Below are positions 8,724-21,970 of a stretch of DNA of 21,970 bases, piece after piece. The stretch's first letter is position 1. Each line of letters opens with the position of its first letter. The stretch is from a virus. The notes below the pieces were generated by a model, which saw nothing but the letters and a program-made list of their open reading frames with translations, was not told where the DNA came from and searched no databases. The translations under genes were made by a program, and so were the position numbers. The stretch spans positions 1 to 21,970 of the IMG/VR virus record IMGVR_UViG_3300009545_000473. One strand, given 5' to 3'.

Positions 8724-8926
8724 GCGCAGCCCGTGTACTTGAGTTTGAAGACTTACAACGCGTAACGGGATATAGCCGCCGGGCAGACGTTGAAAAAACG
8801 TTGCGCTCCCAAGGGATTCGAATTTTCAGTGGACGAAAGGGGCCCTGGACTACGGTGGATTTGATCAACCAGGCGGGCGGGCTAAAACCCGTGGATACCG
8901 ACAGCTACAGTGCGGACATCGTATGA
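8720..8926 (+). CDS. DUF4224-type small protein upstream of integrase
   Basis: The 68-aa product has the DUF4224 pattern: a start of LEFEDLQRVTGYSRRADVEK followed by TLRSQGIRIFSGRKGPWTTV. Proteins of this type occur directly upstream of phage tyrosine integrases and may act as small DNA-binding partners or excisionase-like factors. That role is suggested by context and fold and is not proven. It overlaps the upstream gene and the integrase start by 4 bases each, so integrase translation is likely coupled to it. Confidence 0.8.
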   Translation: MSAARVLEFEDLQRVTGYSRRADVEKTLRSQGIRIFSGRKGPWTTVDLINQAGGLKPVDTDSYSADIV

Positions 8927-10071
8927 AACGTGGTCGAAAGCGCCAACACAATCCAAACATCCCTGGGCACATTGACCAGGCGGCTTTGCCGCGCTCGGTC
9001 TATTTCGACCATAGGGGCGCTGGGTGCTGGTACATCCTGTATTTCAATGAGGCCGGGCGGCGACAGCGGCAGAACCTTTGCGCGGGTAATGTGACGCTTT
9101 CAGAGCTTCACCGCCTCATCGAGGAGCGCAACGGCGTAGACCGCGACAGCCTGCAATACCTCTGTGATGAGTTCCACAAGAGTGACCAGTACAAGGTCCT
9201 CAGCGAGAAAACCCACGACGACTATGTCTACTCCCGCGACGTGCTTCTGGCGTTCCCGACGAAGCTTGGCAAACCGCTGGGCGAACTGGCGGTGCTCAAG
9301 TTCACGCCGGCGCTCGTCCAGCGGATCATCGACAAGATAGCCCAGGATGGCACTCCCTCCAAAGCCGCTCACTCACTGCGCTACCTGCGCCGAGTAATGC
9401 AGTGGGGCCGTAACCGTGGTTTTGTGAAGGACAACCCGGCTAAGGGCATTGAGTCGCCGAAAGAGCGCAAGCAGCGCCGACTGCCCGAAGACACGGTCAT
9501 GGTCAACCTGATCAGGTTCGCAAAGCAGCAAGGCCAACTCAAGAGCGGCCAGGCTGGGGCCTGCTCGCCTTACCTGTGGTATGTGATGGAGATTGGATAC
9601 CTGTGCCGCCTGCGCGGGATCGAGACGATCACACTCACCGACGAGAACGAACTCAACGAAGGGGTGCTCACCAACCGTCGTAAAGGCAGTCGGGACAATA
9701 TCGTCAGGTGGACTCCTCGGCTGCGTGCCGCCTGGGACGCGGCCAAGGCCGTCAGGTCAGAAACGTGGGAGCGGAAGCGAGTGCCGGTGCCAATCCGAGC
9801 AGACCAGCGCTTCCTTATTATTGCCGCTACCGGCAGGCAGTTATCGAAGTCAGGGCTTGATACAGCCTTCCAGCGACTGATAATGCAAGCGATTGAGAAG
9901 AAGGTGCTCACTGAAGAGCAGAGGTTTGGGATGCACGACTTTAAGCGTAAGGGCATCACCGATACGGTGGGCACCCGGGCAGACAAGCAACAAGCGTCAG
10001 GCCATAAAGACGAATCGATGATGGACGTTTACGATCTCAGCGTGCCGACAGTTAATCCATCTTCGGAGTGA
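8923..10071 (+). CDS. int: Prophage tyrosine integrase
   Basis: This 382-aa site-specific recombinase has an N-terminal arm-binding region (about 20-75) and a SAM-like core-binding domain (about 76-180). The catalytic domain has Arg231 in YLCRLRGIETITL, Lys254 in NRRKGSRDN, and His338 with Lys341 in GMHDFKRKGITDT. His361 lies in ASGHKDESMM and the nucleophile is Tyr370 in MDVYDLS. The second box reads HxxK rather than HxxR, a variant known in phage integrases of this type. It is the last rightward gene of the prophage, and its 3' end overlaps the convergent PIN-like gene by 20 bases. The nearest tRNA-derived att candidate is 1.9 kb to the right, with the two-gene cargo module between. Confidence 0.92.
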   Translation: MKRGRKRQHNPNIPGHIDQAALPRSVYFDHRGAGCWYILYFNEAGRRQRQNLCAGNVTLSELHRLIEERNGVDRDSLQYLCDEFHKSDQYKVLSEKTHDDYVYSRDVLLAFPTKLGKPLGELAVLKFTPALVQRIIDKIAQDGTPSKAAHSLRYLRRVMQWGRNRGFVKDNPAKGIESPKERKQRRLPEDTVMVNLIRFAKQQGQLKSGQAGACSPYLWYVMEIGYLCRLRGIETITLTDENELNEGVLTNRRKGSRDNIVRWTPRLRAAWDAAKAVRSETWERKRVPVPIRADQRFLIIAATGRQLSKSGLDTAFQRLIMQAIEKKVLTEEQRFGMHDFKRKGITDTVGTRADKQQASGHKDESMMDVYDLSVPTVNPSSE

Positions 10072-10705
10072 AAAGTTTTATAACATCAACCATGTAACTT
10101 TTAAGACATTCAGTACAGTGCTGTTCATCTCGGCCGTCGCCAAACGCAGAACGAAGAACTTTATCGTACTTCTTCTCACTTACTTGCTTTCGAGCAACTG
10201 ACACGCGCTCATTGACATACTCATATCCGGCATAGTTAATGAGTCTTAACATTGAAGACTCCAGACAATCGACATTTCCAGGGAGGAAAGAAAAGGCGGT
10301 ATCAAAATGCTCGTACGAACAGATCGCGGAGAGCGCCCTTTTATCGCCTGTCAGTATCTTGAACTCTTCGCCCCAGCCGTGACGATCGCTTGCATGTAGA
10401 AACAATGCAAACTCTCCGGGATCAACCTCATCGATCTGTTGCATGTGATCGATCAAATCAAAATCAACTTTAGCGTCATTGAGCACGCTGCATTGCTCAA
10501 GAAACCCGCAAATTCGTTCGTAAGCCTGTGAGCTTCCGACGTATTTTTCGATGGATTTGTCTGGATCTTTCAAGCGCAGGCTGTAGGGGAGACTAGAAAG
10601 GACGAAGCAGTCTTTGGCGCCTGAATTTAAGCTACCGAGGGTGTCTTGCAGTAGATCACATTGTGCAAGCTTGATCACCAAGTCGTTATCGGACAGTAGG
10701 ATCAT
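10052..10705 (-). CDS. PIN-like nuclease/toxin protein
   Basis: The 217-aa product begins MILLSDNDLVIKLAQCDLLQ, with acidic residues at 6 and 8. It has Glu98 in EVDPGEFALFLHA and Asp121 in FKILTGDKRALSAI. This order of acidic residues and the 'TGDkRaL' box match the PIN-like metal-dependent RNase fold. A C-terminal domain carries a CTEC pair (HCTECLKSYM) and is unassigned. The gene overlaps the upstream ImmA/IrrE gene by 4 bases and so is translated with it. A PIN nuclease with a protease partner suggests a toxin or defence module, but the partner is not a standard antitoxin. The call is moderate because PIN sequences diverge widely. Confidence 0.65.
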   Translation of the reverse strand: MILLSDNDLVIKLAQCDLLQDTLGSLNSGAKDCFVLSSLPYSLRLKDPDKSIEKYVGSSQAYERICGFLEQCSVLNDAKVDFDLIDHMQQIDEVDPGEFALFLHASDRHGWGEEFKILTGDKRALSAICSYEHFDTAFSFLPGNVDCLESSMLRLINYAGYEYVNERVSVARKQVSEKKYDKVLRSAFGDGRDEQHCTECLKSYMVDVIKLFTPKMD

Positions 10706-11682
10706 TCAGGGTCAACTAGAGCCCTTAGCAAGTCGAGACTATCTTCTTTAATCTCTTCCGCAAGATTTGAAAACAAATAACTAGACACTAAAGCTTTATC
10801 ACTCACACCTTGAGCCAAAAGCTTAAGCGTTTTAGTACACAATGGCCAAAAATTACCATTGTGAGCACAGTTTAATAAAACATGAGTTGGATCAATATGA
10901 TTCGCAGAACCATAGTTATTTACAACCCTAGCAAGATCTGGAGCCGGCATAAAACGACCTAGCCGCAGCTTAGCTGATGCTTTTCCCGCTAGAAGCTCAA
11001 GTGCAAACTCATCTGCCGCAACTTCATCATCATCACGACCGTCATCGTTTTTTGCAATTTCCGTATCAACGATGGCGCCATTAGCGTCCACATGTCCTAA
11101 AGCGATATGTCCAAGCTCGTGAGCTAGGTGAAAAAGCAAATAGCCGCACTCTTTCTTCGACGAAAGAACAATCGATGGGCGATTATTTGTAGACATGGCA
11201 ATACCATCCATCTTTTTCTTCATAATTGAAGAAGCAAGATGAATCACGGGAATTCCACATTCCCAGCAATAGTCCAGTAGGTCACTCAGGCCAACCCAAG
11301 GCTTGCCAGAAGCCAATATCTGACTCCGAATCTCAGCGGCCGAGACGGGGCGCACATAAGGGCGCTCAATATTGGACAGTACGATTTTGGAAGCACTGCG
11401 AGCCAGAGCTACCGCAAGCTCAACGTCGTCAGCAGTCGTCCCCTTTATGAGCTTGAAACGGCGCTGCTCAGGCAAATCAAACTCGATACGCGCAGGCGTC
11501 TCGGCAATTGACCGAAGCTTCAGATTCAAGGCACGCGCCAAGATGAACTTAGCCTGCTGGAGACCGCTAGGCGTCTCAGCTATCTCGTCATCCCACCAAG
11601 CAGGTAGAAACGCCTGTACCTGCCGCTTAGGCAGGCCATGGGCTCTGAACGCACTGTAAAGGCTTTGCATAGATTCAGTCAT
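10702..11682 (-). CDS. ImmA/IrrE-family metallopeptidase
   Basis: The 326-aa protein contains the zinc-protease site LFHLAHELGHIALGHVD (His188, Glu189, His192), then an acidic region and DDDEVAADEFALELLAG, which supplies the third ligand. This is the ImmA/IrrE (COG2856) arrangement. These enzymes often cleave XRE-type repressors. The N-terminal 130 residues include a MTESMQSLYSAFRAHGLPKR segment that may be a degenerate helix-turn-helix, but no clear one is seen. The GGAGG ribosome site is 7 bases before the ATG. The gene heads a two-gene leftward operon with the PIN-like nuclease at the edge of the prophage, a typical place for cargo expressed during lysogeny. Confidence 0.85.
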   Translation of the reverse strand: MTESMQSLYSAFRAHGLPKRQVQAFLPAWWDDEIAETPSGLQQAKFILARALNLKLRSIAETPARIEFDLPEQRRFKLIKGTTADDVELAVALARSASKIVLSNIERPYVRPVSAAEIRSQILASGKPWVGLSDLLDYCWECGIPVIHLASSIMKKKMDGIAMSTNNRPSIVLSSKKECGYLLFHLAHELGHIALGHVDANGAIVDTEIAKNDDGRDDDEVAADEFALELLAGKASAKLRLGRFMPAPDLARVVNNYGSANHIDPTHVLLNCAHNGNFWPLCTKTLKLLAQGVSDKALVSSYLFSNLAEEIKEDSLDLLRALVDPE

Positions 11683-11969
11683 ATCAAAGCCTCCATTCAG
11701 ACGTTAATGACATAAGGATTAGTCAAAGGTGAGCTCTTCTGCATGCCGGTTAGACATCGGCCCGCCCCTGAAAAGTCACAAGGATACTAAATCTTTTTTG
11801 CATTTCACGCAAGTTATCCACAGCTTTACACACAGGTTTCAGCTAAGGAAAAAGAGGTGATAGCAGGCGCGTACATTGCCAACCGCCATAGCAGGAAAAT
11901 CAAGCCCGAGGCCTTGTTGTTCACGTACAAAAAAAAGGCGCCAGCCCTTAATTCTGTTGAGTAGCTGAC
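11683..11969. other. Gene-free stretch at the prophage edge with DnaA-box-like sites
   Basis: Between the leftward cargo operon and the tRNA fragment no gene was found. A perfect DnaA-box match TTATCCACA lies at 11814-11822 and a one-mismatch site TTACACACA at 11826-11834. The promoter of the ImmA/IrrE-PIN operon must also lie here. A TTGACT box is present on the minus strand near 11720, but no convincing -10 was found at the right distance. The stretch may hold integrase arm-binding sites of attR, which is inference. Confidence 0.4.
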
Positions 11970-12018
11970 CTGACTTGTAATCAGTAGGTCCCGGGTTCGA
12001 CTCCTGGTGCCGGCACCA
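11970..12018 (+). other. tRNA-Thr(TGT) 3' fragment: attachment-site remnant
   Basis: The 49 bases run from the anticodon arm (CTTGTAA loop with TGT anticodon, TCAG stem) through the variable loop, the T-arm (CCGGGTTCGACTCCTGG) and the acceptor strand TGCCGGC, to the CCA tail. The 5' acceptor strand and D-arm are missing. Upstream, only GAGTAGCTGAC resembles the expected tRNA, and a CTGAC duplication breaks the anticodon stem. It cannot make a functional tRNA. Such a 3' piece is left at the far end of an element inserted into a tRNA gene. The intact gene is expected beyond the left edge of the window. Confidence 0.85.
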
Positions 12019-12061
12019 CATTAGGCTCCATTGCATTCTACTGAATGCTCTGGAAGCCCCG

Positions 12062-12087
12062 AAAACCCGCCCTTTGGCGGGTTTTTT
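12062..12087 (+). terminator. Rho-independent terminator downstream of the tRNA-Thr fragment
   Basis: AAAACCCGCC (62-71 of this block), a CTTT loop and GGCGGGTTTT form a perfect 10-bp stem ending in a run of six T. It lies 44 bases after the CCA end and is probably the native terminator of the tRNA-Thr gene carried along with the att sequence. It also insulates the P4-type integrase from upstream transcription. Confidence 0.85.
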
Positions 12088-12182
12088 CGTTCCAGGACCC
12101 TCTGTCGGGATCCAACAAAATCCCCCTTCCCCGAGGGTATGTTAGGGGTACTGCGATTTTCCGGTCAGGAGCGCGTACCCCT

Positions 12183-13511
12183 ATGCCACGTCTAGCGATC
12201 CCTCTCAGCGACCTGCAATGCCGCACGGCCAAAACCCGCGAGCGCGCTTACAAACTGTTCGACGGTGGCGGCATGTACCTTTTCGTCAAACCCAATGGCG
12301 TGAAGACCTGGCGCTTGAAGTACACCAAGCCCAACGGCAAGGAAGGTACGCTCATCATCGGCAATTACCCCATCGTTACCCTTTCCGTCGCACGACGTAA
12401 GCGAGACGAAGCCAAGGCGTTGCTGCTCGACAACCTCGACCCAATGGAAGAAAAGAAGAAGGCCAAGATCGTAGCCCAGCGGGTGGCACTGCTTTTCGAA
12501 ACCGTTGCCCTGGAGTGGCACGCTGATATGTCCCGCCGCTGGACCGAAGGACACGCGAAAACCGTAATGAGCCGACTGCGCACCCACGTCTTCCCGCTGA
12601 TCGGCCAACGACCCATCGCTGAGCTCGATACCCACGACCTGCTAGAGATCACCCAGCGCATCAAGGAACGCGGCACCATGGATGTGGCGTTAAGGGTACA
12701 GAACTACTTATCCACCATCATGCGCGGGGCCAAAAGGGCTCGGCAGATCACCATGAATCCTGCACTGGATCTGGCAGGCTCGATTCACGCGCCACGCACA
12801 ATCCATCGTCCGGCCCTATCCCTCAACCGCCTACCCGAATTGCTACACCGTATCGACAACTACAACGGCCGCGAGCTAACGCGCCTTGCTGTGCTACTGA
12901 CTCTGCATGTATTCGTCCGCTCCAGCGAACTGCGCTTCGCTCGATGGAGTGAGTTCGACTTCCAACGCGCCATGTGGGAAATCCCCGATACGCGCGCACC
13001 GATTGAAGGGGTACGCAACTCCACACGCGGGACCAAGATGAACGGCGACATTCAAATGGTTCCGCTATCGCCGCAGGTCATCGAAATACTGGAGCGCCTG
13101 CGCAGCCTCAGTCGCTTTTCAGAGTTGGTGCTACCGGGCGACCACAAGTACTGGAAGCCCATGTCCGAGAACACAGTGAACACCATGCTCCGCAACGTCG
13201 GCTATGACACCAGCAAGGACGTGTGCGGCCACGGCTTCAGGACCATGGCCTGTAGCGCCCTGCTGGAGTCCGGGTTATGGACCGACGCAGCCATCGAAAG
13301 ACAAATGAGCCACAAGGAACGCAACCGCGTGCGTGCCGCGTATATCCACAAAGCTGAATTTCTGGAGCAGCGCCGGCTGATCATGGCGTGGTGGAGCAAC
13401 TACATCGACGCCAACCGCCATGGGCATGTGACGCCCCACGAATTCGCTCACCCCGTCGGCGACAACATCACCGCCCTACAAAATAGCCGTGGCGCATCCA
13501 AACGTGGGTAA
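12183..13511 (+). CDS. intS-like: P4-type tyrosine integrase of the second island
   Basis: The 442-aa enzyme has the usual P4 integrase layout. A DUF4102-type N-terminal domain (PRLAIPLSDLQCRTAKTRER, then YLFVKPNGVKTWRLKY) is followed by a core-binding domain and a catalytic domain. Catalytic residues are Arg246 in VFVRSSELRFARW, Lys285 in RGTKMNGD, His350 with Arg353 in CGHGFRTMA, His377 in MSHKERN and Tyr387 in RAAYIHK. The ATG at 12183 is preferred to the upstream 12045 start because family members begin near 'MPRxxxPL' and the upstream extension covers a terminator. AGGAG lies upstream. The gene reads away from the tRNA-Thr fragment, the standard place of such integrases. It should recombine at that tRNA 3' end. 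Confidence 0.94.
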   Translation: MPRLAIPLSDLQCRTAKTRERAYKLFDGGGMYLFVKPNGVKTWRLKYTKPNGKEGTLIIGNYPIVTLSVARRKRDEAKALLLDNLDPMEEKKKAKIVAQRVALLFETVALEWHADMSRRWTEGHAKTVMSRLRTHVFPLIGQRPIAELDTHDLLEITQRIKERGTMDVALRVQNYLSTIMRGAKRARQITMNPALDLAGSIHAPRTIHRPALSLNRLPELLHRIDNYNGRELTRLAVLLTLHVFVRSSELRFARWSEFDFQRAMWEIPDTRAPIEGVRNSTRGTKMNGDIQMVPLSPQVIEILERLRSLSRFSELVLPGDHKYWKPMSENTVNTMLRNVGYDTSKDVCGHGFRTMACSALLESGLWTDAAIERQMSHKERNRVRAAYIHKAEFLEQRRLIMAWWSNYIDANRHGHVTPHEFAHPVGDNITALQNSRGASKRG

Positions 13512-13546
13512 GCCAATGAGATCACCGCAGTCCGCCCTTCCACGCG

Positions 13547-13591
13547 GGTCCATCCAAGCGGGGCTGCAAAGCCGCCCTGCTTGGATGGACC
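13547..13591. terminator. Long inverted repeat after the P4-type integrase
   Basis: GGTCCATCCAAGC (13547-13559) is repeated in exact inversion as GCTTGGATGGACC (13579-13591). The inner part GGGGC/GCCGCCC adds imperfect pairing. It starts 36 bases after the integrase stop. The T content downstream is poor (TCATTTAAAAAA), so termination would be inefficient or rho-assisted. It might instead be a protein-binding or RNA-stabilising element. Confidence 0.45.
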
Positions 13592-13625
13592 TCATTTAAA
13601 AAATCTAAAGCCCACGCAAATTGTC

Positions 13626-13715
13626 TGTGGAAAACCATAGATTTCCACCGGTGGATAATTTCATCCACAGCCGCAGAATTCCCGAAAATTCGAGCCTTGA
13701 CCCAAATTATCCACA
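13626..13715. promoter_or_regulatory. Cluster of four DnaA-box-like sites
   Basis: Sites resembling TTATCCACA lie at 13626-13634 (minus strand, TTTTCCACA), 13650-13658 (minus, TTATCCACC), 13661-13669 (plus, TCATCCACA) and 13707-13715 (plus, perfect). All others have one mismatch. Four such sites in 90 bases, in AT-rich DNA beside an integrase, are more than a random expectation. This may be an origin for autonomous replication of the excised island, or integrase arm sites with a similar sequence. Confidence 0.45.
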
Positions 13716-13953
13716 GGCGTAGAAAAGATCGGGCAAAGCGCTGTCGTTGACAGCAACCCAGGTAGCCAGAACCTTTAAGGCTACGCCACACCGTGGTGGT
13801 TCTCCCAAAGTGCGATTAGCGTCCGGCGGCTCGCACGGTCACTCACCGAGTGATGGATGCCAGCTTCAGATCATTGTCATTGCGGCAAATACATCTCCGT
13901 ACCCAACTGCCCTGCAGCAACCTATCCGCGTGGCCATTTCATTGCGCCAACCT

Positions 13954-13988
13954 GCGCCCGTCTCTTTCTCCCGGAAAGAGACGGGCGC
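13954..13988. repeat. 15-bp perfect inverted repeat, 5-base loop
   Basis: GCGCCCGTCTCTTTC (13954-13968) and GAAAGAGACGGGCGC (13974-13988) are exact inverted copies around TCCCG. No T-run follows on either side, so it is not a terminator. The outer part GGGCGCTCCTACC faintly recalls Pseudomonas REP elements, but the match is too partial to call. It is the strongest of five hairpins in this gap. Confidence 0.6.
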
Positions 13989-14100
13989 TCCTACCGCTGC
14001 TGCAGCCCAACTCGTACAAGGCTTTGCGGCATTCCCCCTCGTGACAAGAGGCGTGACAAACACCGAAGTCACCAGCAACAGCGGTGCAGATGATGGTGCC

Positions 14101-14211
14101 GCAGCCCAGGGAATGGGCTGCACCTGACTGACAGTCAGGTATGCCCCGGTCATCGCATCTCTGCCTTCACCTGATTCAGGATCTCGCGGCATTGGCCTCG
14201 TCAGCCAATGC
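14101..14211. repeat. Four consecutive inverted repeats upstream of the second recombinase
   Basis: In order these are GCAGCCCA/TGGGCTGC (14101-14121, 5-base loop), ACCTGACTG/CAGTCAGGT (14122-14140, 1-base centre), CCTGA-T-TCAGG (14170-14180) and GCATTGGC/GCCAATGC (14189-14211, 7-base loop). All arms are exact. They could be binding sites for the recombinase encoded 200 bases downstream, transfer- or replication-origin structures, or stems of one RNA. Confidence 0.55.
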
Positions 14212-14414
14212 AGTCTCCACCCGCCCACCGGAATCGGTGTTCAGGAGGCCAGATCATGAGATGCCCAAGCTCCCGGTCGTAAAGAGCCGCCAGTCCCGCG
14301 TTAGTGGACAACCCTCACAGGTCGCAGGGGCCTTGATCCCTGATAACACTCAACATCCATGGCGGGATGACGTGGGGGAAGCTTCAAACGTTTGGCTTGA
14401 AGAGGAGTTCGATC

Positions 14415-15395
14415 ATGGGATTGGTGGGTAGGCGAGATGGACGCAATTTTGGCTATGGCCGGCAACTGAGCTATGCAGGACCGCAGGCATTGAAAGACCT
14501 GTTTGGCGGTGGGCATTACGGGACGGTCAAAGCACACAGTGATCGGTGGCAGGCGTTTGTACGCTGGTGTCGGTCGGAGGATGGGCCAGGCGTCAACGAT
14601 GCGCGACAGATTGATCGGCAGACCTTGCTGGACTACACCGAGCATCTGCGCCAACAAGTTGAACACGGTGCTATCGGCATCGCCACTGCGCAAAACCGGT
14701 TGTCCAGTGTGAATCGGACCATGGCCGCGCTTCGCGGAGATCAGTATGTGAAAGTGCCGAGTCCGAGCAAGTCGTTGGGAATGCAGCGCACCAGTGTTCG
14801 TTGCTCGGTTCCGCAAGGCCAAGACCGCGAACAGGTGAAGCGGATCGTAGACGTGCTCTGCGAACACCAAATGCCGCGCGCGGCGGCCATCGCTCAGTTG
14901 GCGCGAGCCACCGGCATGCGCTTGCGCGAGGCGATTTTGGCCGACCTTCCCCGTCTAAAACGTGAAGCCAAGCAATTCGAAAAGATCAACATCCAGGACG
15001 GCACCAAAGGTGGCCGTTCAGGCGCGTCAGCACCTCGTTGGATTACGATAGATGATCATATTCGTGACGCGCTGAGGTTTGCCGAACAGGTCTCACCCGA
15101 CAGTAGCCGCAACCTACTTGCACCGGACGAAAGCTACCTCGATTTCCAACGGGGAATCGCCCGCCCCGCCCGAGATATCCTCCATCAGCACAACCTCAAA
15201 GGCTTCCACGAATTGCGGGCGGCTTATGCGTGCGAACGCTATGAGCAAATCACCCAGCATCCCGCGCCCATCAACGGCGGCCGTTGCTATCAGCTCGACC
15301 AACGCCTCGATCGGGAGGCACGAGACCAAGTCAGCTATGAGCTGGGGCACGGCCGTATCGACGTGGTGTCGGCTTACATTGGCAGTCGAACATGA
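14415..15395 (+). CDS. Integrase_1-type tyrosine recombinase
   Basis: This 326-aa protein matches the 'integrase domain-containing' proteins of Pseudomonas islands. It has a SAM-like N-terminal domain (about 25-110, GTVKAHSDRWQAFVRWCRSE) and a catalytic domain. Arg169 or Arg171 lies in TGMRLREAIL, Lys198 in DGTKGGRSG, His265 and Arg268 in GFHELRAAYACERY, His312 in YELGHGRID, and the nucleophile Tyr321 in VSAYIGS. The ATG at 14415 follows AAGAGGAG; an in-frame start at 14367 lacks such a site. It is only distantly like the P4-type integrase nearby. Its job may be a second recombination event, such as an inversion or an insertion. The target is unknown. Confidence 0.83.
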   Translation: MGLVGRRDGRNFGYGRQLSYAGPQALKDLFGGGHYGTVKAHSDRWQAFVRWCRSEDGPGVNDARQIDRQTLLDYTEHLRQQVEHGAIGIATAQNRLSSVNRTMAALRGDQYVKVPSPSKSLGMQRTSVRCSVPQGQDREQVKRIVDVLCEHQMPRAAAIAQLARATGMRLREAILADLPRLKREAKQFEKINIQDGTKGGRSGASAPRWITIDDHIRDALRFAEQVSPDSSRNLLAPDESYLDFQRGIARPARDILHQHNLKGFHELRAAYACERYEQITQHPAPINGGRCYQLDQRLDREARDQVSYELGHGRIDVVSAYIGSRT

Positions 15396-15667
15396 GCCAA
15401 CCATTTGATATGGAGCTGTTCCTGGCCGGCGTTCTGACCGGGTCGCATTCCACACGCCAACGCCACCTTCGTCAGGCGGAGGCTATCCAAACAGCAATCG
15501 TTGAGCGCTGGCAACGCGACAATCCATGGACTTGGCAGAGAAAACACCTTGCGTGGTTTTTAAATCACCACCTAAACCAGCGCACTGACTCGACGCGTTA
15601 TTACTATTTGCTGACCATGCAATTACTCACTTATCGCCTAGGAAAATCCTGGCAGTTCAACCGTTAA
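15392..15667 (+). CDS. Small partner protein of the Integrase_1 gene (91 aa)
   Basis: The ATG overlaps the recombinase stop by 4 bases (ATGA at 15392), so the two are co-translated. The product starts MSQPFDMELFLAGVLTGSHS, has a basic middle (TRQRHLRQAEAIQTAIVERW) and an aromatic stretch KHLAWFLNHHLNQRTDSTRY. It is probably helical and DNA- or protein-binding. From memory, a short gene of this kind commonly follows this recombinase in Pseudomonas islands. I know of no function. Confidence 0.68.
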   Translation: MSQPFDMELFLAGVLTGSHSTRQRHLRQAEAIQTAIVERWQRDNPWTWQRKHLAWFLNHHLNQRTDSTRYYYLLTMQLLTYRLGKSWQFNR

Positions 15668-15861
15668 GCGAAGGTCAGAAAACGGGCAGGAATGGACACT
15701 CATGGGCAGGTTAGCGACGGGAAAAGACCCGCGCCTGCCGTTGGTGAGCTTTGGCGATGGGGTAAGTTTTTTGTGCTATAAGTAAATACTTTGTCTAGGC
15801 TGTTTTTGAAACACTTCTGCAGCTGAATACAACTGCGGATAAGTATTGGGGAGCGAGGGAT

Positions 15862-17244
15862 ATGCCATTAAGTTACGAGCAGTACCAAGAGGAAGTGACC
15901 TCCGACATACTTAACGTTCTCGGCCAGGCCGCATGCCAGCCCATCTTATTTGTCGGATCCGGCTTTTCGAAAAGATACTCTAAGGGGCCAAGTTGGGAGG
16001 AACTGCTAAAAGTCCTGGCTTCGAGATGCCCAAACATTAGCTTGGACTTGGCTTACTACAAACAAAAGAATAAAAGCCTAGTTGAGATTGGAAGTATATT
16101 TTCTGACTGCTTTCGTGAGTGGGCGTGGACTGAGGGTAGAGATGAATTTCCTGCGGAATACTTTTCTGAAGAATACCCGTCTGATATTTTTATAAAATAT
16201 ACAATTGTAACTATTTTGAATGGAATGGGACCAAGTGAAACTGGTTCTTATGGCGCAGACGACTTAGATGCTGAAATAGCAGCCCTACAGTCTATGAGTC
16301 CGCACGCGCTTATCACCACCAACTACGACCAATTATTAGAGCTGATTTTTCCAGATTTCGAGCGAGTAGTAGGTCAGCAGGTACTAAGCAAGCCTTATTT
16401 GTCGGTTGGCGAAATTTTTAAGATACACGGATGCATTTCAGACCCTTTATCGCTTGTATTAACTGATGAGGATTATCAGGTCTTTGAGGCAGATAAAAAG
16501 TACTTAAGCGCAAAGCTACTCACATACTTCGCAGAGCACCCGCTTCTATTTGTTGGGTACCGAGCTGAAGACCCTAATATAAAAAGCATATTATATGATG
16601 TCACTCGCATGTTTAAAGCAAGCCAGGCTTTAACTCCAAATATTTACATACTGGAATGGGATAAAGATGTAAACGAATCGTCTTATCCTGCTCGTGAAAG
16701 AATCATCAACGTCGGAGAAGATGTGACAATTCGCGTAAAAAGCATTACAGCATCGTCCTTTGAGTGGGTATTTAAGGCGTTCGGAAACAATGGAACTTTA
16801 GAGCAGATTAACGTAAAGCTACTTCGAGCATTAATGGCGCGGGCCTTCAATCTGGTGAGGAGGGATACTCTGGCAAAACAGGTAGAGGTAAATTTCTCTA
16901 TGCTAGAACATGCCGTAGAGAGCGATGAGAACTTCGCCAAAATATTAGGCATCACATCTCTGGATGGGCCTGCCAGTGTAAATGCTAATTATCCGTACAC
17001 TCTCCAGTTAGTCGCGGAGAAGCTTGGATTTAATAGCTGGAATGGTGCGCACAAGCTAATTGAAACATTGGAGCAAATGACAGGCTTTGATATGAAAAAC
17101 TCCGACAACCCATACCACTTCAAATTAAAAACCGGAAAGTCGGCGAGTAGCTTTACTAGAAAATACTCGGAAGCTGCGGTCATCTTGCTTGGGAGGGTTC
17201 AGTCTGGCGAGAGCTTCAAATTGGCTCCAGGCTGCTCGACCTAG
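15862..17244 (+). CDS. SIR2-domain protein (SIR2_2 type), candidate defence NADase
   Basis: The 460-aa protein shows the sirtuin-like motifs of bacterial defence NADases. These are PILFVGSGFSKRYSKGPSW (27-45), ITTNYDQLLE (151-160, with Asn154 and Asp156), KIHGCISDPLSLVLT (187-201, His189) and LLFVGYRAEDPNIKSI (228-243). The last is the 'GYxxxDPxI' box of the SIR2_2 family. Residues about 1-300 are the SIR2 domain. The C-terminal 160 residues are unassigned and may sense infection or hold the enzyme inactive. SIR2 proteins in Thoeris, Dsr, SIR2-HerA and related systems deplete NAD+ when triggered, which gives the defence call. GCGAGGGA precedes the ATG. The DNA is clearly AT-richer than its neighbours, a sign of separate acquisition. 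No HerA, TIR or Argonaute partner lies beside it. Confidence 0.85.
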   Translation: MPLSYEQYQEEVTSDILNVLGQAACQPILFVGSGFSKRYSKGPSWEELLKVLASRCPNISLDLAYYKQKNKSLVEIGSIFSDCFREWAWTEGRDEFPAEYFSEEYPSDIFIKYTIVTILNGMGPSETGSYGADDLDAEIAALQSMSPHALITTNYDQLLELIFPDFERVVGQQVLSKPYLSVGEIFKIHGCISDPLSLVLTDEDYQVFEADKKYLSAKLLTYFAEHPLLFVGYRAEDPNIKSILYDVTRMFKASQALTPNIYILEWDKDVNESSYPARERIINVGEDVTIRVKSITASSFEWVFKAFGNNGTLEQINVKLLRALMARAFNLVRRDTLAKQVEVNFSMLEHAVESDENFAKILGITSLDGPASVNANYPYTLQLVAEKLGFNSWNGAHKLIETLEQMTGFDMKNSDNPYHFKLKTGKSASSFTRKYSEAAVILLGRVQSGESFKLAPGCST

Positions 17245-17623
17245 CATTCTAAGTCTGCGTTTTTCTTATTTTCTAAAAATATTCGGATGGCTAGTTTTGG
17301 ACTTGGAGGACGTGCATTGATGATATTCGTCATGGGGTGGTACCGGCCTGTCGTCACCGACGGCAACCGCCTCGTGGCAACTAATCAGTTCAAGGTGCCT
17401 ACAAAATCAGGGGCGATTCAGTCTAACCGATACCACTTCCTCAGCAAACAGCCTGTTTCATACACCCAAACGCAGTTGGCGCACCCAATTTCACATCAGC
17501 AGATGATACTTTGTTAAATCCCAACTCAAGCCTTTGAGGACGCGCAAAAGGTTTAATCGACGACATTGAAGAATAGTTACAAACTAATTAGACAAATCAC
17601 ACGCCAACAGCGGTAAACATCTT
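17245..17623. other. 379-base gap between the SIR2 and PRTase genes
   Basis: No supported gene was found. A 76-aa frame (17287-17517) has no ribosome site. Its middle (WYRPVVTDGNRLVATNQFKV) is protein-like and more GC-rich than its surroundings, so it may be a scrap of an older gene. The rest, 17518-17623, is AT-rich leader DNA before the PRTase gene. No clear promoter with correct spacing was identified. Confidence 0.45.
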
Positions 17624-19495
17624 ATGAAAAAAACGTCACCCCTGGCCCAAAATAAAGAACTTGATATCGAAGAGAAAATTCTAGGTGACCAACGATTCCT
17701 AGATCTAAGAATCTATTTCAATTTTGATTTTTCTATATTCTCCACGCCCCCTGGAACAATACAACAAGAAGATAACGGAATTCACAGCTATAAAAAATTC
17801 AAAAAATTCCAAGAGAATCAGAGATCAGAGTTCTCGCGACTAATATACAACGCAACGAAATCTTCAAACCTCGGGCAAGATTTTGAGGCGCATGCCAGCT
17901 TCCTAATGCAACTACCAAAAAATCGTTTTAGCTTTGGACTACTAACAAAGCATATTAGTAAGTTTGAGGATTATGCAAAAAAATGCATTAGTAAAAGATA
18001 TGCAGACCCTCAATCACTCGCCTCAATTGCAATCCCTGCTCTGATCCAACCATTGTATCATTGGTCAGAAGCAGTGGATGATGATCAGCGAAATTCTTTA
18101 ATGCTGCAAATCGAAGATCTTATCCATAACCTCAACAAAACTCTTCCTCCCTCTACAATAATTTCCGGCTCCGCAGAATTTAAAAGCTACATTTTATTCG
18201 CTTATATAATAGTTGCTGAAATCCTGAAACTCGGATTATCCAGCGCAATATTGGCATATCATCTGGTTTATTTCAGACAGCAAAGCGTATCCACTTGGGC
18301 AAACATCCATCCTAGAGAGCGCTTGTTATTCTCTGTAATATCGCTACATACTTTTTTACGCTTTTACAACAAAAGTGATTCTTTCTCGCCAAAATATGGA
18401 TTCAGCCATAACACCTTTACTGACCTGCATGCGCTAATGTACGACGCGTACGACGCATGTAGTAGCTTGGGATTAATCACCGCAGGCCAGGTTTTCATGT
18501 GGGTTGTCGAGCGCATTGAATCAGAAGCACTCGCCTACAATGACCTTGCAGGCGGCAGGCGCGCATTGAAAGGATTAACTCCAACAGAAACAAGATCAGT
18601 AGTCGAGTTGGTTAAGCGCTTTTCCTCCTATCGAATTCCAGTCACTGTCGAACGAGTTGAACGCTTTCTTGCTCAATTCGTAACTACTGGACGAATAAGG
18701 GCGGCATTAAAACTACTGAATCATTTAAAATTCTACCCTCTTTGGCAGCTTGGGGAAGCCATGGAGAGTATGTTAAGAACCGAATCAGAAAATCATGGAA
18801 AAATCGTCGTCGCCCCTTTGGGGGATCGAACAGGTAGCACTGCCATAATAAACTACCTAATATCTCACTCTGGATTAACTAGCATAGTTTTTGCTGACGA
18901 TTTGGTACATGCGATAAGTCTAACGAAGGCAGGAGATCGGATATATTTTGTCGATGACTGCACCCTCAGCGGCACGCAATCTATTCATATTATGCAGGAA
19001 CTAATGGGTGAACGCATTTTAAAACCTCACCACACCAAACATTGCGATGCTCTTTCAAAATCCCAGCAAACAGCCGTATGTAAACGGACACTGGTGTTTG
19101 CTTACTGCTTAGCCTGTGATACTGCAATTAATCGTATGAAAGACGAGCTTTCCAAGCTTCATTACGGAAAGATTAATTTTGAAATTATTTACGACATTCC
19201 CGAACCTTCAAAATCCAAAGCATTTACCTCTGCAAGCGCTGTGCCTTGGGAAAGCCAGACTGAAAGGGACGACCTAAAAAAATACTGTGCTGATATGGGA
19301 TATTCAATACTTGAGAAAATGGCTATAGATAAGGGATGGGACGAAGAACGGAGATTGGAAAGCTCTCTAGGCTATTCTGACTTCCAGCGACTTTTAGTAT
19401 TTCCATATAGCGTACCTAAAACCACTTTACCTATCCTTTGGACAGAGGGAAATTCGGAGGTCAAGTGGATGCCTCTCTTCCCTGTCCTCGACTAG
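17624..19495 (+). CDS. Large protein with wHTH-like and phosphoribosyltransferase-like (PRTase-CE) domains
   Basis: The 623-aa protein has three visible parts. Residues 1-315 are a helical domain of unknown function (FLDLRIYFNFDFSIF near the start, then several leucine-rich helices). Residues about 318-385 contain TPTETRSVVELVKRFSSYRI and FLAQFVTTGRIRAALKLLNH, which look like a winged helix. Residues about 390-620 form a PRTase-like domain, with KIVVAPLGDRTGSTAII (393-409) and the PRPP-loop-like IYFVDDCTLSGTQS (440-453, Asp444-Asp445). It ends with YSDFQRLLVFPYSVPKTTLP and LWTEG/WMPLFP. This ending is shared by PRTase-CE proteins predicted in bacterial conflict systems. Such enzymes are thought to act on nucleotide-ribose substrates. 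The ribosome site is weak. AT-rich, like the SIR2 gene. Confidence 0.75.
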   Translation: MKKTSPLAQNKELDIEEKILGDQRFLDLRIYFNFDFSIFSTPPGTIQQEDNGIHSYKKFKKFQENQRSEFSRLIYNATKSSNLGQDFEAHASFLMQLPKNRFSFGLLTKHISKFEDYAKKCISKRYADPQSLASIAIPALIQPLYHWSEAVDDDQRNSLMLQIEDLIHNLNKTLPPSTIISGSAEFKSYILFAYIIVAEILKLGLSSAILAYHLVYFRQQSVSTWANIHPRERLLFSVISLHTFLRFYNKSDSFSPKYGFSHNTFTDLHALMYDAYDACSSLGLITAGQVFMWVVERIESEALAYNDLAGGRRALKGLTPTETRSVVELVKRFSSYRIPVTVERVERFLAQFVTTGRIRAALKLLNHLKFYPLWQLGEAMESMLRTESENHGKIVVAPLGDRTGSTAIINYLISHSGLTSIVFADDLVHAISLTKAGDRIYFVDDCTLSGTQSIHIMQELMGERILKPHHTKHCDALSKSQQTAVCKRTLVFAYCLACDTAINRMKDELSKLHYGKINFEIIYDIPEPSKSKAFTSASAVPWESQTERDDLKKYCADMGYSILEKMAIDKGWDEERRLESSLGYSDFQRLLVFPYSVPKTTLPILWTEGNSEVKWMPLFPVLD

Positions 19496-19529
19496 TGACT
19501 GGCAATAATCGGTCAACAGGAGCCAGTCA
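19496..19529 (+). terminator. Inverted repeat after the PRTase gene
   Basis: TGACTGGC (19496-19503) starts on the base after the TAG stop and is inverted as GCCAGTCA (19522-19529), with an 18-base loop. No T-run follows. It may protect the 3' end or terminate transcription weakly. Confidence 0.35.
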
Positions 19530-19540
19530 GCCCCAGTCGC

Positions 19541-19723
19541 TTACATATACAGACGAACGTTCGAGTCCACCCTGAAAAATTCAGGGTGATTCCCACCTAG
19601 AGCGTTGAGGTTCGCCTCAACCCTCGGGTTGACCAGAACCGTAGCGAGCTTCTTCTTGAGCTGTTGCCGAACGGTAGCGCCAGCTTGTGCTACTCCTTCG
19701 AAGCCCGCGCATTAGATTCAAGG
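19541..19723 (-). pseudogene. relE: Decayed relE toxin gene
   Basis: In one minus-strand frame the sequence reads AGATVRQQLKKKLATVLVNP, then RVEAN. This closely matches the RelE core (TVREQLKKKLVEVL and PRIEAN in E. coli RelE). Just upstream, in another frame, it reads RASKE-stop-HKL, which corresponds to RelE's 'RALKEW-KL'. The Trp codon has become TAG, and one base has been lost before the GATV segment. The N terminus is missing, and past EAN the sequence (LNALGGNHPEFFRV and on to TAA at 19541) no longer follows RelE, so the catalytic C-terminal part is gone. It lies directly after the relB remnant in the normal relBE order. It cannot encode an active toxin. Confidence 0.72.
19568..19588. 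repeat. Perfect 9-bp inverted repeat
   Basis: CACCCTGAA-AAA-TTCAGGGTG forms a strong short hairpin. A second one, GTTGAGG-TTCG-CCTCAAC (19604-19621), with a UUCG-type loop, lies 15 bases on. They fall where the relE remnant stops matching its family, so they may mark rearranged DNA or be an imported terminator-like element without a T-run. Confidence 0.45.
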
Positions 19724-19982
19724 CTATAGGTAATTTAGCGAAACCTTTACCCGCTCGGGTGTAGCTAGCCGCTCGCGCGCATCGTTGCGATGCAGCGTCT
19801 CATCGTCTTCGGTCATCAAGACCAGGTAGCTGCCCACGCTCTGCCACGTACTGCAAAACTTGACGCATCAGCTCGGAAGGCGAAACGCCGAGCTTTTCCA
19901 GTTCGCGGTATGCAAGCGCCTTGAGGTCGTCGTCGATACGGACGTTGATGGACGCTATGGAATGCCCCCTCACTGATGACAT
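19724..19982 (-). pseudogene. relB: Frameshifted relB/dinJ-type antitoxin gene
   Basis: From 19982 the frame reads SVRGHSIASINVRIDDDLKA, LAYRELEKLGVSPSELMRQV and LQYVAERGQLP, a textbook RelB/DinJ ribbon-helix-helix N terminus. It then runs into GLDDRRR-stop at 19800. The usual C-terminal half, VLMTEDDETLHRNDARERLA and TPERVKVSL, is present in another frame and ends at TAG 19724. One extra base, or the loss of a few bases, around 19823-19828 therefore broke the gene. The DNA-binding half could still be made as a 60-aa peptide and might repress the old operon promoter. The toxin-neutralising half is lost. Its partner relE is also dead. Confidence 0.78.
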
Positions 19983-20070
19983 TGATTTTTACAGTTAACG
20001 AAATGCGTGAGTTCGGCAAGCCCACTCGCAGCTCAAGTATCGTGCACGGCATACTCTCAGGGCCTATCGA

Positions 20071-20086
20071 TCCCGGGTTAGACTCC
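20071..20086 (+). other. Candidate right attachment remnant (tRNA-Thr T-arm match)
   Basis: The 16 bases TCCCGGGTTAGACTCC match the tRNA-Thr T-arm at 11989-12004 (TCCCGGGTTCGACTCC) at 15 of 16 positions and in the same orientation. Flanking bases do not match. It sits exactly where island genes end and chromosome seems to begin. It may be a decayed attR of the P4-type island. A chance match is unlikely but possible. Confidence 0.4.
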
Positions 20087-20220
20087 ACTGAGATCCATAA
20101 CTAGCTGATTTATTTGTAGTTATAGATTGGGGTACGTCGAATTTTCCACCGAATTCCAGACCCGCAGGAAACCTAGTCTCGCCGAAAGATACCGTTCGTC
20201 TGGTGCCGCACCATACAAAA

Positions 20221-20250
20221 CAAAGCCCCTGCAGAAATGCAGGGGCTTTG
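20221..20250. terminator. Bidirectional terminator-like hairpin
   Basis: CAAAGCCCCTGCA (20221-20233), a GAAA tetraloop and TGCAGGGGCTTTG (20238-20250) form a perfect 13-bp stem. It is flanked by A-rich sequence on the left and TTGTTT on the right, so it could end transcripts in either direction. It fits a boundary between the island and the chromosome. Confidence 0.75.
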
Positions 20251-20573
20251 TTGTTTCTGGGGTGTTTGTATTTAGCTGATGCCCGCCCGCCTTTCTCCAC
20301 ACCTCTACACCCCCTCGAAAATCCCCCACCTCTATACCCAAGATTCAATTTCCAAGCTTTACGCTGAATTATGAACTGCCAACAATTATGGCTAACCCAT
20401 AAAAACACCTAATCCCACCAACCCAGCTATCTTCCCAATCGCTCCCCACTCCCCCGGCTGCAAACCCAGCGGCCGAGCCTGAGAACCCGACTTGATGCAG
20501 GCGCTAACTACGCCCCCCATTCGCAGTGATTACGAACGTGACAGCTCTCACTCGATAGAGGAGTTTTACCGAT

Positions 20574-20601
20574 CCCCAGCCTGGTCAGGCCGGGGCTTTT
20601 T
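20574..20601 (+). terminator. Rho-independent terminator upstream of the M48 gene
   Basis: CCCCAGCCTG-GT-CAGGCCGGGG forms a stem with one mismatch (A against C) and is followed by CTTTTT. It ends rightward transcription about 60 bases before the M48 peptidase gene. The transcript it served is not obvious, and it may belong to a chromosomal gene or tRNA displaced by the insertions. Confidence 0.72.
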
Positions 20602-20665
20602 GGTGCCCTGCTGGGCGGTTTTTCTGTATAACGCCGTCAAGACTAAGCGTTGCGAACGGATGCCC

Positions 20666-21970
20666 ATGAACGCCCTGAAACTGATCTGTTTGCTGGTGAT
20701 TGTCCCGCTGCTGCTCGCCGCTCTGGGCGGTTGGGAGCGTGAGCGGGCGGGTGAGGCTGCCGCGTGGTTGATCAACTACCAGGCCGATGTCAGCGCCACT
20801 CGGCAAACCCTGCAGACCTTGGCGACGCAAAACCCTACGGCCCTTATCGACCTGGGCGAGGAAAAAATCGGCATCCAGCCGGCGCTCGAGCGGCTGGATA
20901 AAATCACGGCCGAACTGCCCACCGCCCAACGTATCAATAGCGGCATGCGCACCCTGGCGCCGTGGGTGATGGGGCTGGGCCTGCTGGCGGCGTTGATCGG
21001 TGTGGCGGCGCTGGCCGGCACACAGTGGGCGGGGCGGCGTGCGCGGCAGTCGCGGGAAAAACTGTTGCAGGCGTTCGCCCTCGGCAGCCGCTTGTTGCCC
21101 TATGTGCTGGTGAGCCATGTGGTGGCGATGGCGACGACGGTGGCGCTGGCCTTGAGTTTCGAAGGCTTGGCGATGTGGCACATCGGTCGATTGGGTCGCG
21201 GCGAGTTCAAGCTGATGGCCGTGCTGGCGGTGATTGCGGCGTTCTGCCTGTATTCGATCTGGCTGCTGCTCAAACAATCGCGACACATGCTGGGTATGTT
21301 CAAACCCGAGCCGCTGGAGATGTTCGGGGCGGTGGTGACGCACGCACAGGCGCCGGAGCTGTGGCGCGACGTGAATACGTTGGCCGGCAAGCTCGGCGCG
21401 CTGTCACCGGACCATATCGTGGTGAGCCTGACCCAAGGGTTTTACGTGACCTCCAGCGAGGCCCACGTGCAACCGGCGCATACCACGCTGCATGGACGCA
21501 CCTTGCATGTGCCGCTGCTGTACCTCGGCCTGCTGAGCCGCGACGAAATCGGCGCGGTGATCGGCCATGAGCTCGCACACTTTGCAGGGGAAGACACCGA
21601 ATACAGCCTGCGCTTCTTGCCGATCTACGATGGGGTCAATCGCAGCCTGGCGGTGCTGCTGGATACCCTGCTGGCCAGTGACCTGATCCAGGAGTGGCTG
21701 ATGCGGCCGTCATTCCTGTTCGGCGTGTTTTTCATGCAGCGCTTTGATCACGCGGTCAACCATTGGAGCCGCGAGCGCGAGTTGCTGGCGGATGCCGCAG
21801 GTGCGCGCCTGGTCGGCAATGGCGCGGCGGCTTCAGCGCTGTTGCGCGTGTCGGTGTTGCAGCCGCTTATCGAGGACGCGCTGTTGGCCTTGTGTGACTC
21901 AGCCTCGGAAGAGGATCTGCCCACCGCCGCCCTGGCCGCGCTGCAAGGCCGTGAACTGCAGGTGCCGCCA
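20666..21970 (+). CDS. M48-family membrane metallopeptidase (partial, runs off right edge)
   Basis: The frame is open from the ATG to the window end (435 codons). An in-frame ATG two codons earlier (20660) is an equal choice, and neither has a strong ribosome site. The protein starts with a membrane helix (MNALKLICLLVIVPLLLAAL). It has three more hydrophobic segments near residues 97-118, 143-166 and 183-203. The zinc-protease site is GAVIGHELAHFAGEDTEYSL, with His301, Glu302 and His305; the third ligand is probably Glu372 in SRERELLADAAGARL. This is the M48 (HtpX/Ste24-like) order. Such enzymes act at the inner membrane in protein quality control. GC-rich composition and lack of phage features mark it as chromosomal backbone. 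Confidence 0.9.
   Translation, partial: MNALKLICLLVIVPLLLAALGGWERERAGEAAAWLINYQADVSATRQTLQTLATQNPTALIDLGEEKIGIQPALERLDKITAELPTAQRINSGMRTLAPWVMGLGLLAALIGVAALAGTQWAGRRARQSREKLLQAFALGSRLLPYVLVSHVVAMATTVALALSFEGLAMWHIGRLGRGEFKLMAVLAVIAAFCLYSIWLLLKQSRHMLGMFKPEPLEMFGAVVTHAQAPELWRDVNTLAGKLGALSPDHIVVSLTQGFYVTSSEAHVQPAHTTLHGRTLHVPLLYLGLLSRDEIGAVIGHELAHFAGEDTEYSLRFLPIYDGVNRSLAVLLDTLLASDLIQEWLMRPSFLFGVFFMQRFDHAVNHWSRERELLADAAGARLVGNGAAASALLRVSVLQPLIEDALLALCDSASEEDLPTAALAALQGRELQVPP

Follow-up and report, generated by a model that had tools for sequence, protein, structure and literature searches.

The window analysed here, the 21,970 bases of virus record IMGVR_UViG_3300009545_000473, contains a Pseudomonas tRNA-Thr integrative island whose cargo consists of a SIR2_2 gene and a PRTase-CE gene. 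We consider these to be two independent defence-gene cargoes stacked by chance (probability about 0.8), because each gene is normally found without the other among several dozen relatives. A sequence-only reading of the same DNA had proposed one anti-phage module, with two independent defence genes as its fallback. Both families are indeed tied to anti-phage conflict and both genes are island cargo; the single system did not hold up, and the fallback is the best fit given that the partner is absent elsewhere.

From left to right, the record comprises a prophage-like part, the island, and a flank that carries a putative metallopeptidase gene. The features of the island are as follows:

11987..12018, plus strand: 3' end of tRNA-Thr(TGT), the left att site of the island (exact 32-base pattern)
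12045..13511, plus strand: tyrosine integrase of the island (Arm-DNA-bind_3, Phage_int_M and Phage_integrase; Pfam)
13726..13860, plus strand: radC RNA (RF01754), part of the island core (Rfam, 80.6 bits, cut-off 40)
14367..15395, plus strand: second integrase, Integrase_1 (PF12835; Pfam), the core gene directly 5' of the cargo slot
15392..15667, plus strand: 91-aa ORF, the terminal piece of the conserved core (end of core homology)
15862..17244, plus strand: SIR2_2 protein, 460 aa (ORF, Pfam and PADLOC profiles)
17245..17623, no strand: 379-base spacer (69% identity to sister cassette L002; fold and Rfam)
17624..19495, plus strand: PRTase-CE protein, 623 aa (ORF, Pfam and PADLOC profiles)
20064..20263, plus strand: right island border (common to sister islands L057 and L055 and to 30 of 60 islands)

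No complete tRNA gene was found within the window, in which only the 3' end at 11987-12018 is present; the prophage region upstream leaves the 5' half incomplete. At the equivalent spot in L057 and L055 (Pseudomonas), the whole tRNA-Thr is intact ahead of the integrase-bearing core, and the island tyrosine integrase shares 91% DNA identity with its L057 counterpart. The island is closed by att-like repeats at 20073 (CCGGGTTAGACTCC) and 20201-20213 (TGGTGCCGCACCA), with a terminator-like stem 3' of them inside the right border. The cargo region has a GC content of 38-47%, compared with 55-65% across most of the remaining window. With its integrase next to the 3' end of a tRNA, its att repeats, and its variable cargo between constant borders, this is a tRNA-targeted integrative island, and the AT-rich, tRNA-inserted character ascribed to this region from sequence alone was borne out. 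In the neighbouring prophage, whose upstream integrase lies at 8923-10071, an ImmA/IrrE-like metallopeptidase gene (PF06114) and a 217-aa gene with no family match occupy 10052-11682 on the minus strand, between that integrase and the tRNA fragment. They are AT-rich like the island cargo and are possibly toxin-antitoxin or defence cargo of this prophage.

Relatives of the Integrase_1 protein were detected in about half of the Pseudomonas species genomes searched (205 of 400), and the regions around the 60 closest were fetched as a sample of core-sharing islands. Core homology ends sharply at 15,600-15,705 in 53 of the 60. The right border was seen in 30, and siting at tRNA-Thr is evident only for islands with this border, not necessarily for all 60. 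Where both ends are visible, the core lies 2.2-10.7 kb from the right att site. These two limits therefore define a cargo slot at about 15,690-20,070, in which the SIR2 and PRTase-CE genes are the sole long ORFs. Sister islands with the same borders hold different cargo, and the exchange can thus be seen directly. Across the core-sharing islands, the cargo includes reverse transcriptases of retron and UG types, TOTE primases and a TIR effector, proteins resembling capP and LmuA, and also non-defence genes. Neither the SIR2 gene nor the PRTase-CE gene of the window was found in the 60 core-sharing islands. The radC RNA lies upstream of Integrase_1 in the window and in all ten other islands tested (L009, L057, L070, L076, L079, L089, L099, L107, L108 and L109). 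A literature search combining radC RNA with integrase and Pseudomonas returned no paper; this RNA may either regulate the integrase or serve as a site of recombination.

A tyrosine integrase beside an RNA gene, variable defence cargo and no recognised transfer genes are also characteristic of the Pseudomonas tRNA/tmRNA defence islands cDHS1/2 (PMC10250203) and I23/I44/I55 with IntY (PMC12595487). The present island differs from them in targeting tRNA-Thr(TGT) and in a core that adds the Integrase_1 integrase and the radC RNA. PRTase-CE genes also occur in other islands with the same Integrase_1 core, at L055:9528-11801, L057:6594-9785 and L009:8001-9868; these three came from PRTase-CE searching and are not a measure of enrichment. 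Two of them differ in architecture from the window gene.

The first gene was correctly recognised as SIR2_2 by the sequence-only reading (PF13289, E 7.6e-25; 88.1 bits against a curated cut-off of 24.5), and all the motifs it quoted are present. Its product has an N-terminal NADase domain at about 25-310 and a C-terminal domain at about 310-460. Residues G32 and G34 of the GSG motif, N154, D156 and H189 are invariant in 21 SIR2 homologue sequences, and His189 of the KIHG motif aligns with KomC His146, the residue altered in PDB entry 9xvc. In the structure model (pLDDT 79.9, with low confidence at 333-368), the C-terminal part is built of helices, then two strands and one more helix, and it is a guess that this part is a sensor. 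The nearest solved folds are ThsA (Thoeris), KomC, DSR2, AVAST5 and SIR2/HerA, with which the protein shares the SIR2 NADase fold and the catalytic Asn/His; sequence similarity to them is limited to the SIR2 domain. Considering the invariant catalytic residues, the KomC alignment and the fold matches, the protein likely hydrolyses NAD+ upon infection, by analogy with these families. No recognised partner gene for SIR2 was found in the cargo slot, and a search of the record for a Thoeris ThsB-type TIR gene gave no match to TIR_2 (PF13676), the only TIR family searched.

The best PADLOC match of the SIR2 protein is the candidate PDC-S25 (residues 12-401, E 4.9e-79), for which a literature search returned no paper. 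As in PDC-S25, the gene stands alone at most loci; the window protein is shorter, at 460 aa for a model of 517 positions, and the model does not reach its 60 C-terminal residues. A 90% identical SIR2 gene (L003:8001-9380) stands by itself among the structural genes of a Mu-like prophage, and therefore the gene also moves as phage cargo. At L053:7831-10332, a SIR2 homologue abuts a 377-aa same-strand gene with a weak match to classical SIR2 (PF02146, E 4.6e-4, below cut-off), so that this locus possibly holds two adjacent SIR2-type genes.

In the second gene, the PRTase-CE assignment and the PRPP-loop-like motif were likewise recovered (PF24390, E 6.1e-30; 105.4 bits against a curated cut-off of 27). 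The domain covers residues 345-620 of 623 and carries the PRPP loop VDDCTLSGTQ, which reads VDDC.LSGTQ across the four close relatives; most other PRTase-CE proteins seen show DD..SG or DD..TG in its place. The winged helix that had been read into this protein found no support: residues 1-344 gave no family-model match, and the AlphaFold model, built from a three-sequence alignment, was too poor to be informative (pLDDT 43.7). In this low-confidence model the N-terminal region is helical. Among the sequences compared, the 344-aa region is confined to the four close relatives, and a profile comparison with the N-terminal regions of other PRTase-CE architectures gave no match. Close relatives of the protein include those in L002 (85% identity), L009 (64%) and L006 (34%). 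The L009 relative (Pseudomonas sp. TH15) is frameshifted near residue 568, and ABC-three-component-like genes (CTD8 alpha/beta hydrolase) lie directly 5' of it at L009:4240-7945. A PDB sequence search with the PRTase returned weak CheY matches judged to be due to chance, and no paper was found in a literature search under PRTase-CE.

The same PRTase-CE domain is found with other N-terminal or partner parts in other genomes. It adjoins reverse transcriptases (L134-L137 and L145 tested), lies beside ORC-CDC6-like proteins (L133 and L138), and forms fusions with an OLD-type TOPRIM domain (L132) and with an AAA ATPase (L054, L056 and L057); in L057 the AAA fusion occupies the same island slot as the window gene. 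Since PRTase-CE thus appears as one effector domain with varying sensors elsewhere, this analogy suggests that the 344-aa region is a putative sensor. PRTases are also regarded as probable effectors of retrons (PMC12548924) and, with a mode of action described as unknown, of the DprA-PRTase system of P2 hotspots (PMC9122126, 2022). As in the latter, the PRTase would be the likely effector of phage-defence cargo; unlike in that system, there was no match to the DprA domain (DNA_processg_A) in the window. A role of the PRTase in NAD+ salvage was set aside, as its loop is of the type I PRTase kind. Nicotinamide PRTases have a different fold from type I PRTases.

Adjacency of the two families was counted from genome searches and fetched regions; a narrow-pattern contig scan with the three-sequence PRTase alignment gave one locus. 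No PRTase-CE gene was found near about 30 loci of SIR2 homologues that match over essentially their full length at 31-90% identity, namely in about 20 viral contigs, in the fetched flanks of seven Pseudomonas loci and around three plasmid loci (annotated genes up to about 5-6 kb away), some loci ending at contig ends (e.g. L051, L158 and L162). Conversely, no SIR2 gene was found near 23 PRTase-CE loci: the SIR2 profile gave none near 17 PRTase-CE genes from 399 genomes of the phylum, of which some contigs are short (e.g. L137 and L146), and none in L006, L009 and L054-L057. Moreover, no SIR2 match was obtained anywhere in genome G001, which carries the second-closest PRTase (64% identity). The close PRTase relatives (L002, L009 and L006) are too few for a strong test of linkage.

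The sole other copy of the pair is in IMGVR_UViG_2648501455_000009 (L002), which shares 85% DNA identity with the window over 15339 to 19697. As this identity includes the spacer, L002 and the window hold the same ancestral cassette, although most of the Integrase_1 gene is deleted in L002. Between the two copies, dS is 0.53 and 0.55 for the two genes, and dN/dS is 0.04 and 0.14. The equal dS values indicate that the genes have moved together since the split, and thus, as judged from these comparisons, the L002 pair is a co-inherited single ancestral arrangement rather than a repeated association. The dN/dS values show purifying selection on both genes; they speak for maintenance of each and do not imply cooperation. 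The 379-base gap noted earlier is present, and at 69% identity to L002 it resembles neutral DNA. A retron-like or structured RNA in this spacer was rejected, as there was no Rfam match and no unusual fold (z-score +0.40). Across 10000-21970, no Rfam retron RNA was detected at E values up to 1, a search that undescribed RNAs escape.

These data bear on whether the two proteins act as a single abortive-infection system, with the PRTase producing or consuming a metabolite that would activate the SIR2 NADase. Metabolite gating of a SIR2 protein has a precedent in Thoeris, and the two genes are adjacent, in the same direction and co-inherited in L002 at equal dS. However, the pair is kept at no other locus among the roughly 30 SIR2 and 23 PRTase-CE loci, being neighbours only in the window and the same-lineage cassette. 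The neutral spacer is unlike operon spacing, and other PRTase-CE genes reside in sister islands without SIR2. The adjacency check proposed with the module turned out against it, since PRTase-CE sits in other systems (type III-A retron-like, ORC-CDC6-like and OLD-TOPRIM) that lack SIR2. A joint system of this kind is therefore unlikely. What counts against independence is that in L002 the two genes still lie next to each other on one strand after a dS of about 0.54, despite the loss of most of Integrase_1, a persistence compatible with weak functional linkage. A recently assembled, rare two-gene system, in which the helical PRTase-CE protein would gate the SIR2 NADase and selection would have kept the two genes together in both known copies, is given a small chance.

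We regard it as very improbable that the PRTase was the effector of a type III-A retron (PMC12548924), was left behind when the reverse transcriptase and msDNA were lost, and is non-functional alone. The PADLOC PRTase_III-A models do match (E 2.6e-20, beginning at residue 327), the PRTase-CE domain with a PRPP-type DD..SG loop is shared, and reverse transcriptases adjoin other PRTase-CE genes. Nevertheless, the match scores 70.7 bits compared with 284 for a genuine retron PRTase against the same library. No reverse transcriptase (RVT_1) was found in the 22-kb record or in the fetched loci of L002, L006 and L009, and no Rfam retron RNA was present. The extra 344-aa region, conserved in four relatives, is unmatched in the retron-type PRTase of L134; the retron-type C-terminal extension is missing because the PRTase domain reaches residue 620 of 623; and purifying selection continues. 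Very doubtful, too, is that at least one of the genes plays no part in defence and is an ordinary metabolic or decaying passenger: the defence role of both is a prediction and the L009 relative is frameshifted, but the catalytic motifs are intact, both genes are under purifying selection, the nearest folds of the SIR2 protein are all anti-phage NADases, and the cargo slot is rich in defence genes.

For two independent cargoes, we infer the triggers, the NAD+ hydrolysis and PRPP chemistry, and the defence activity of both candidate genes as follows. The first would be a single-gene SIR2 abortive-infection candidate, whose C-terminal domain may serve infection sensing or assembly and whose SIR2 domain would then hydrolyse NAD+. 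The second would be a single-gene PRTase-CE candidate, with the helical N-terminal region as the putative sensor and the phosphoribosyltransferase domain as an effector acting on PRPP or nucleotides.

Adjacency within a shared cargo slot says little about joint function, and the present analysis keeps a chance pair from being catalogued as a new defence system. The radC-RNA/Integrase_1 core, located here at tRNA-Thr, is widespread in Pseudomonas, and its cargo slot offers a place to look for defence genes. Judging by their sequences, both genes appear to be new members of known families, the new part being the predicted helical N-terminal region of the PRTase-CE protein; the PRTase-CE subfamily with this region is the most worthwhile subject for follow-up.
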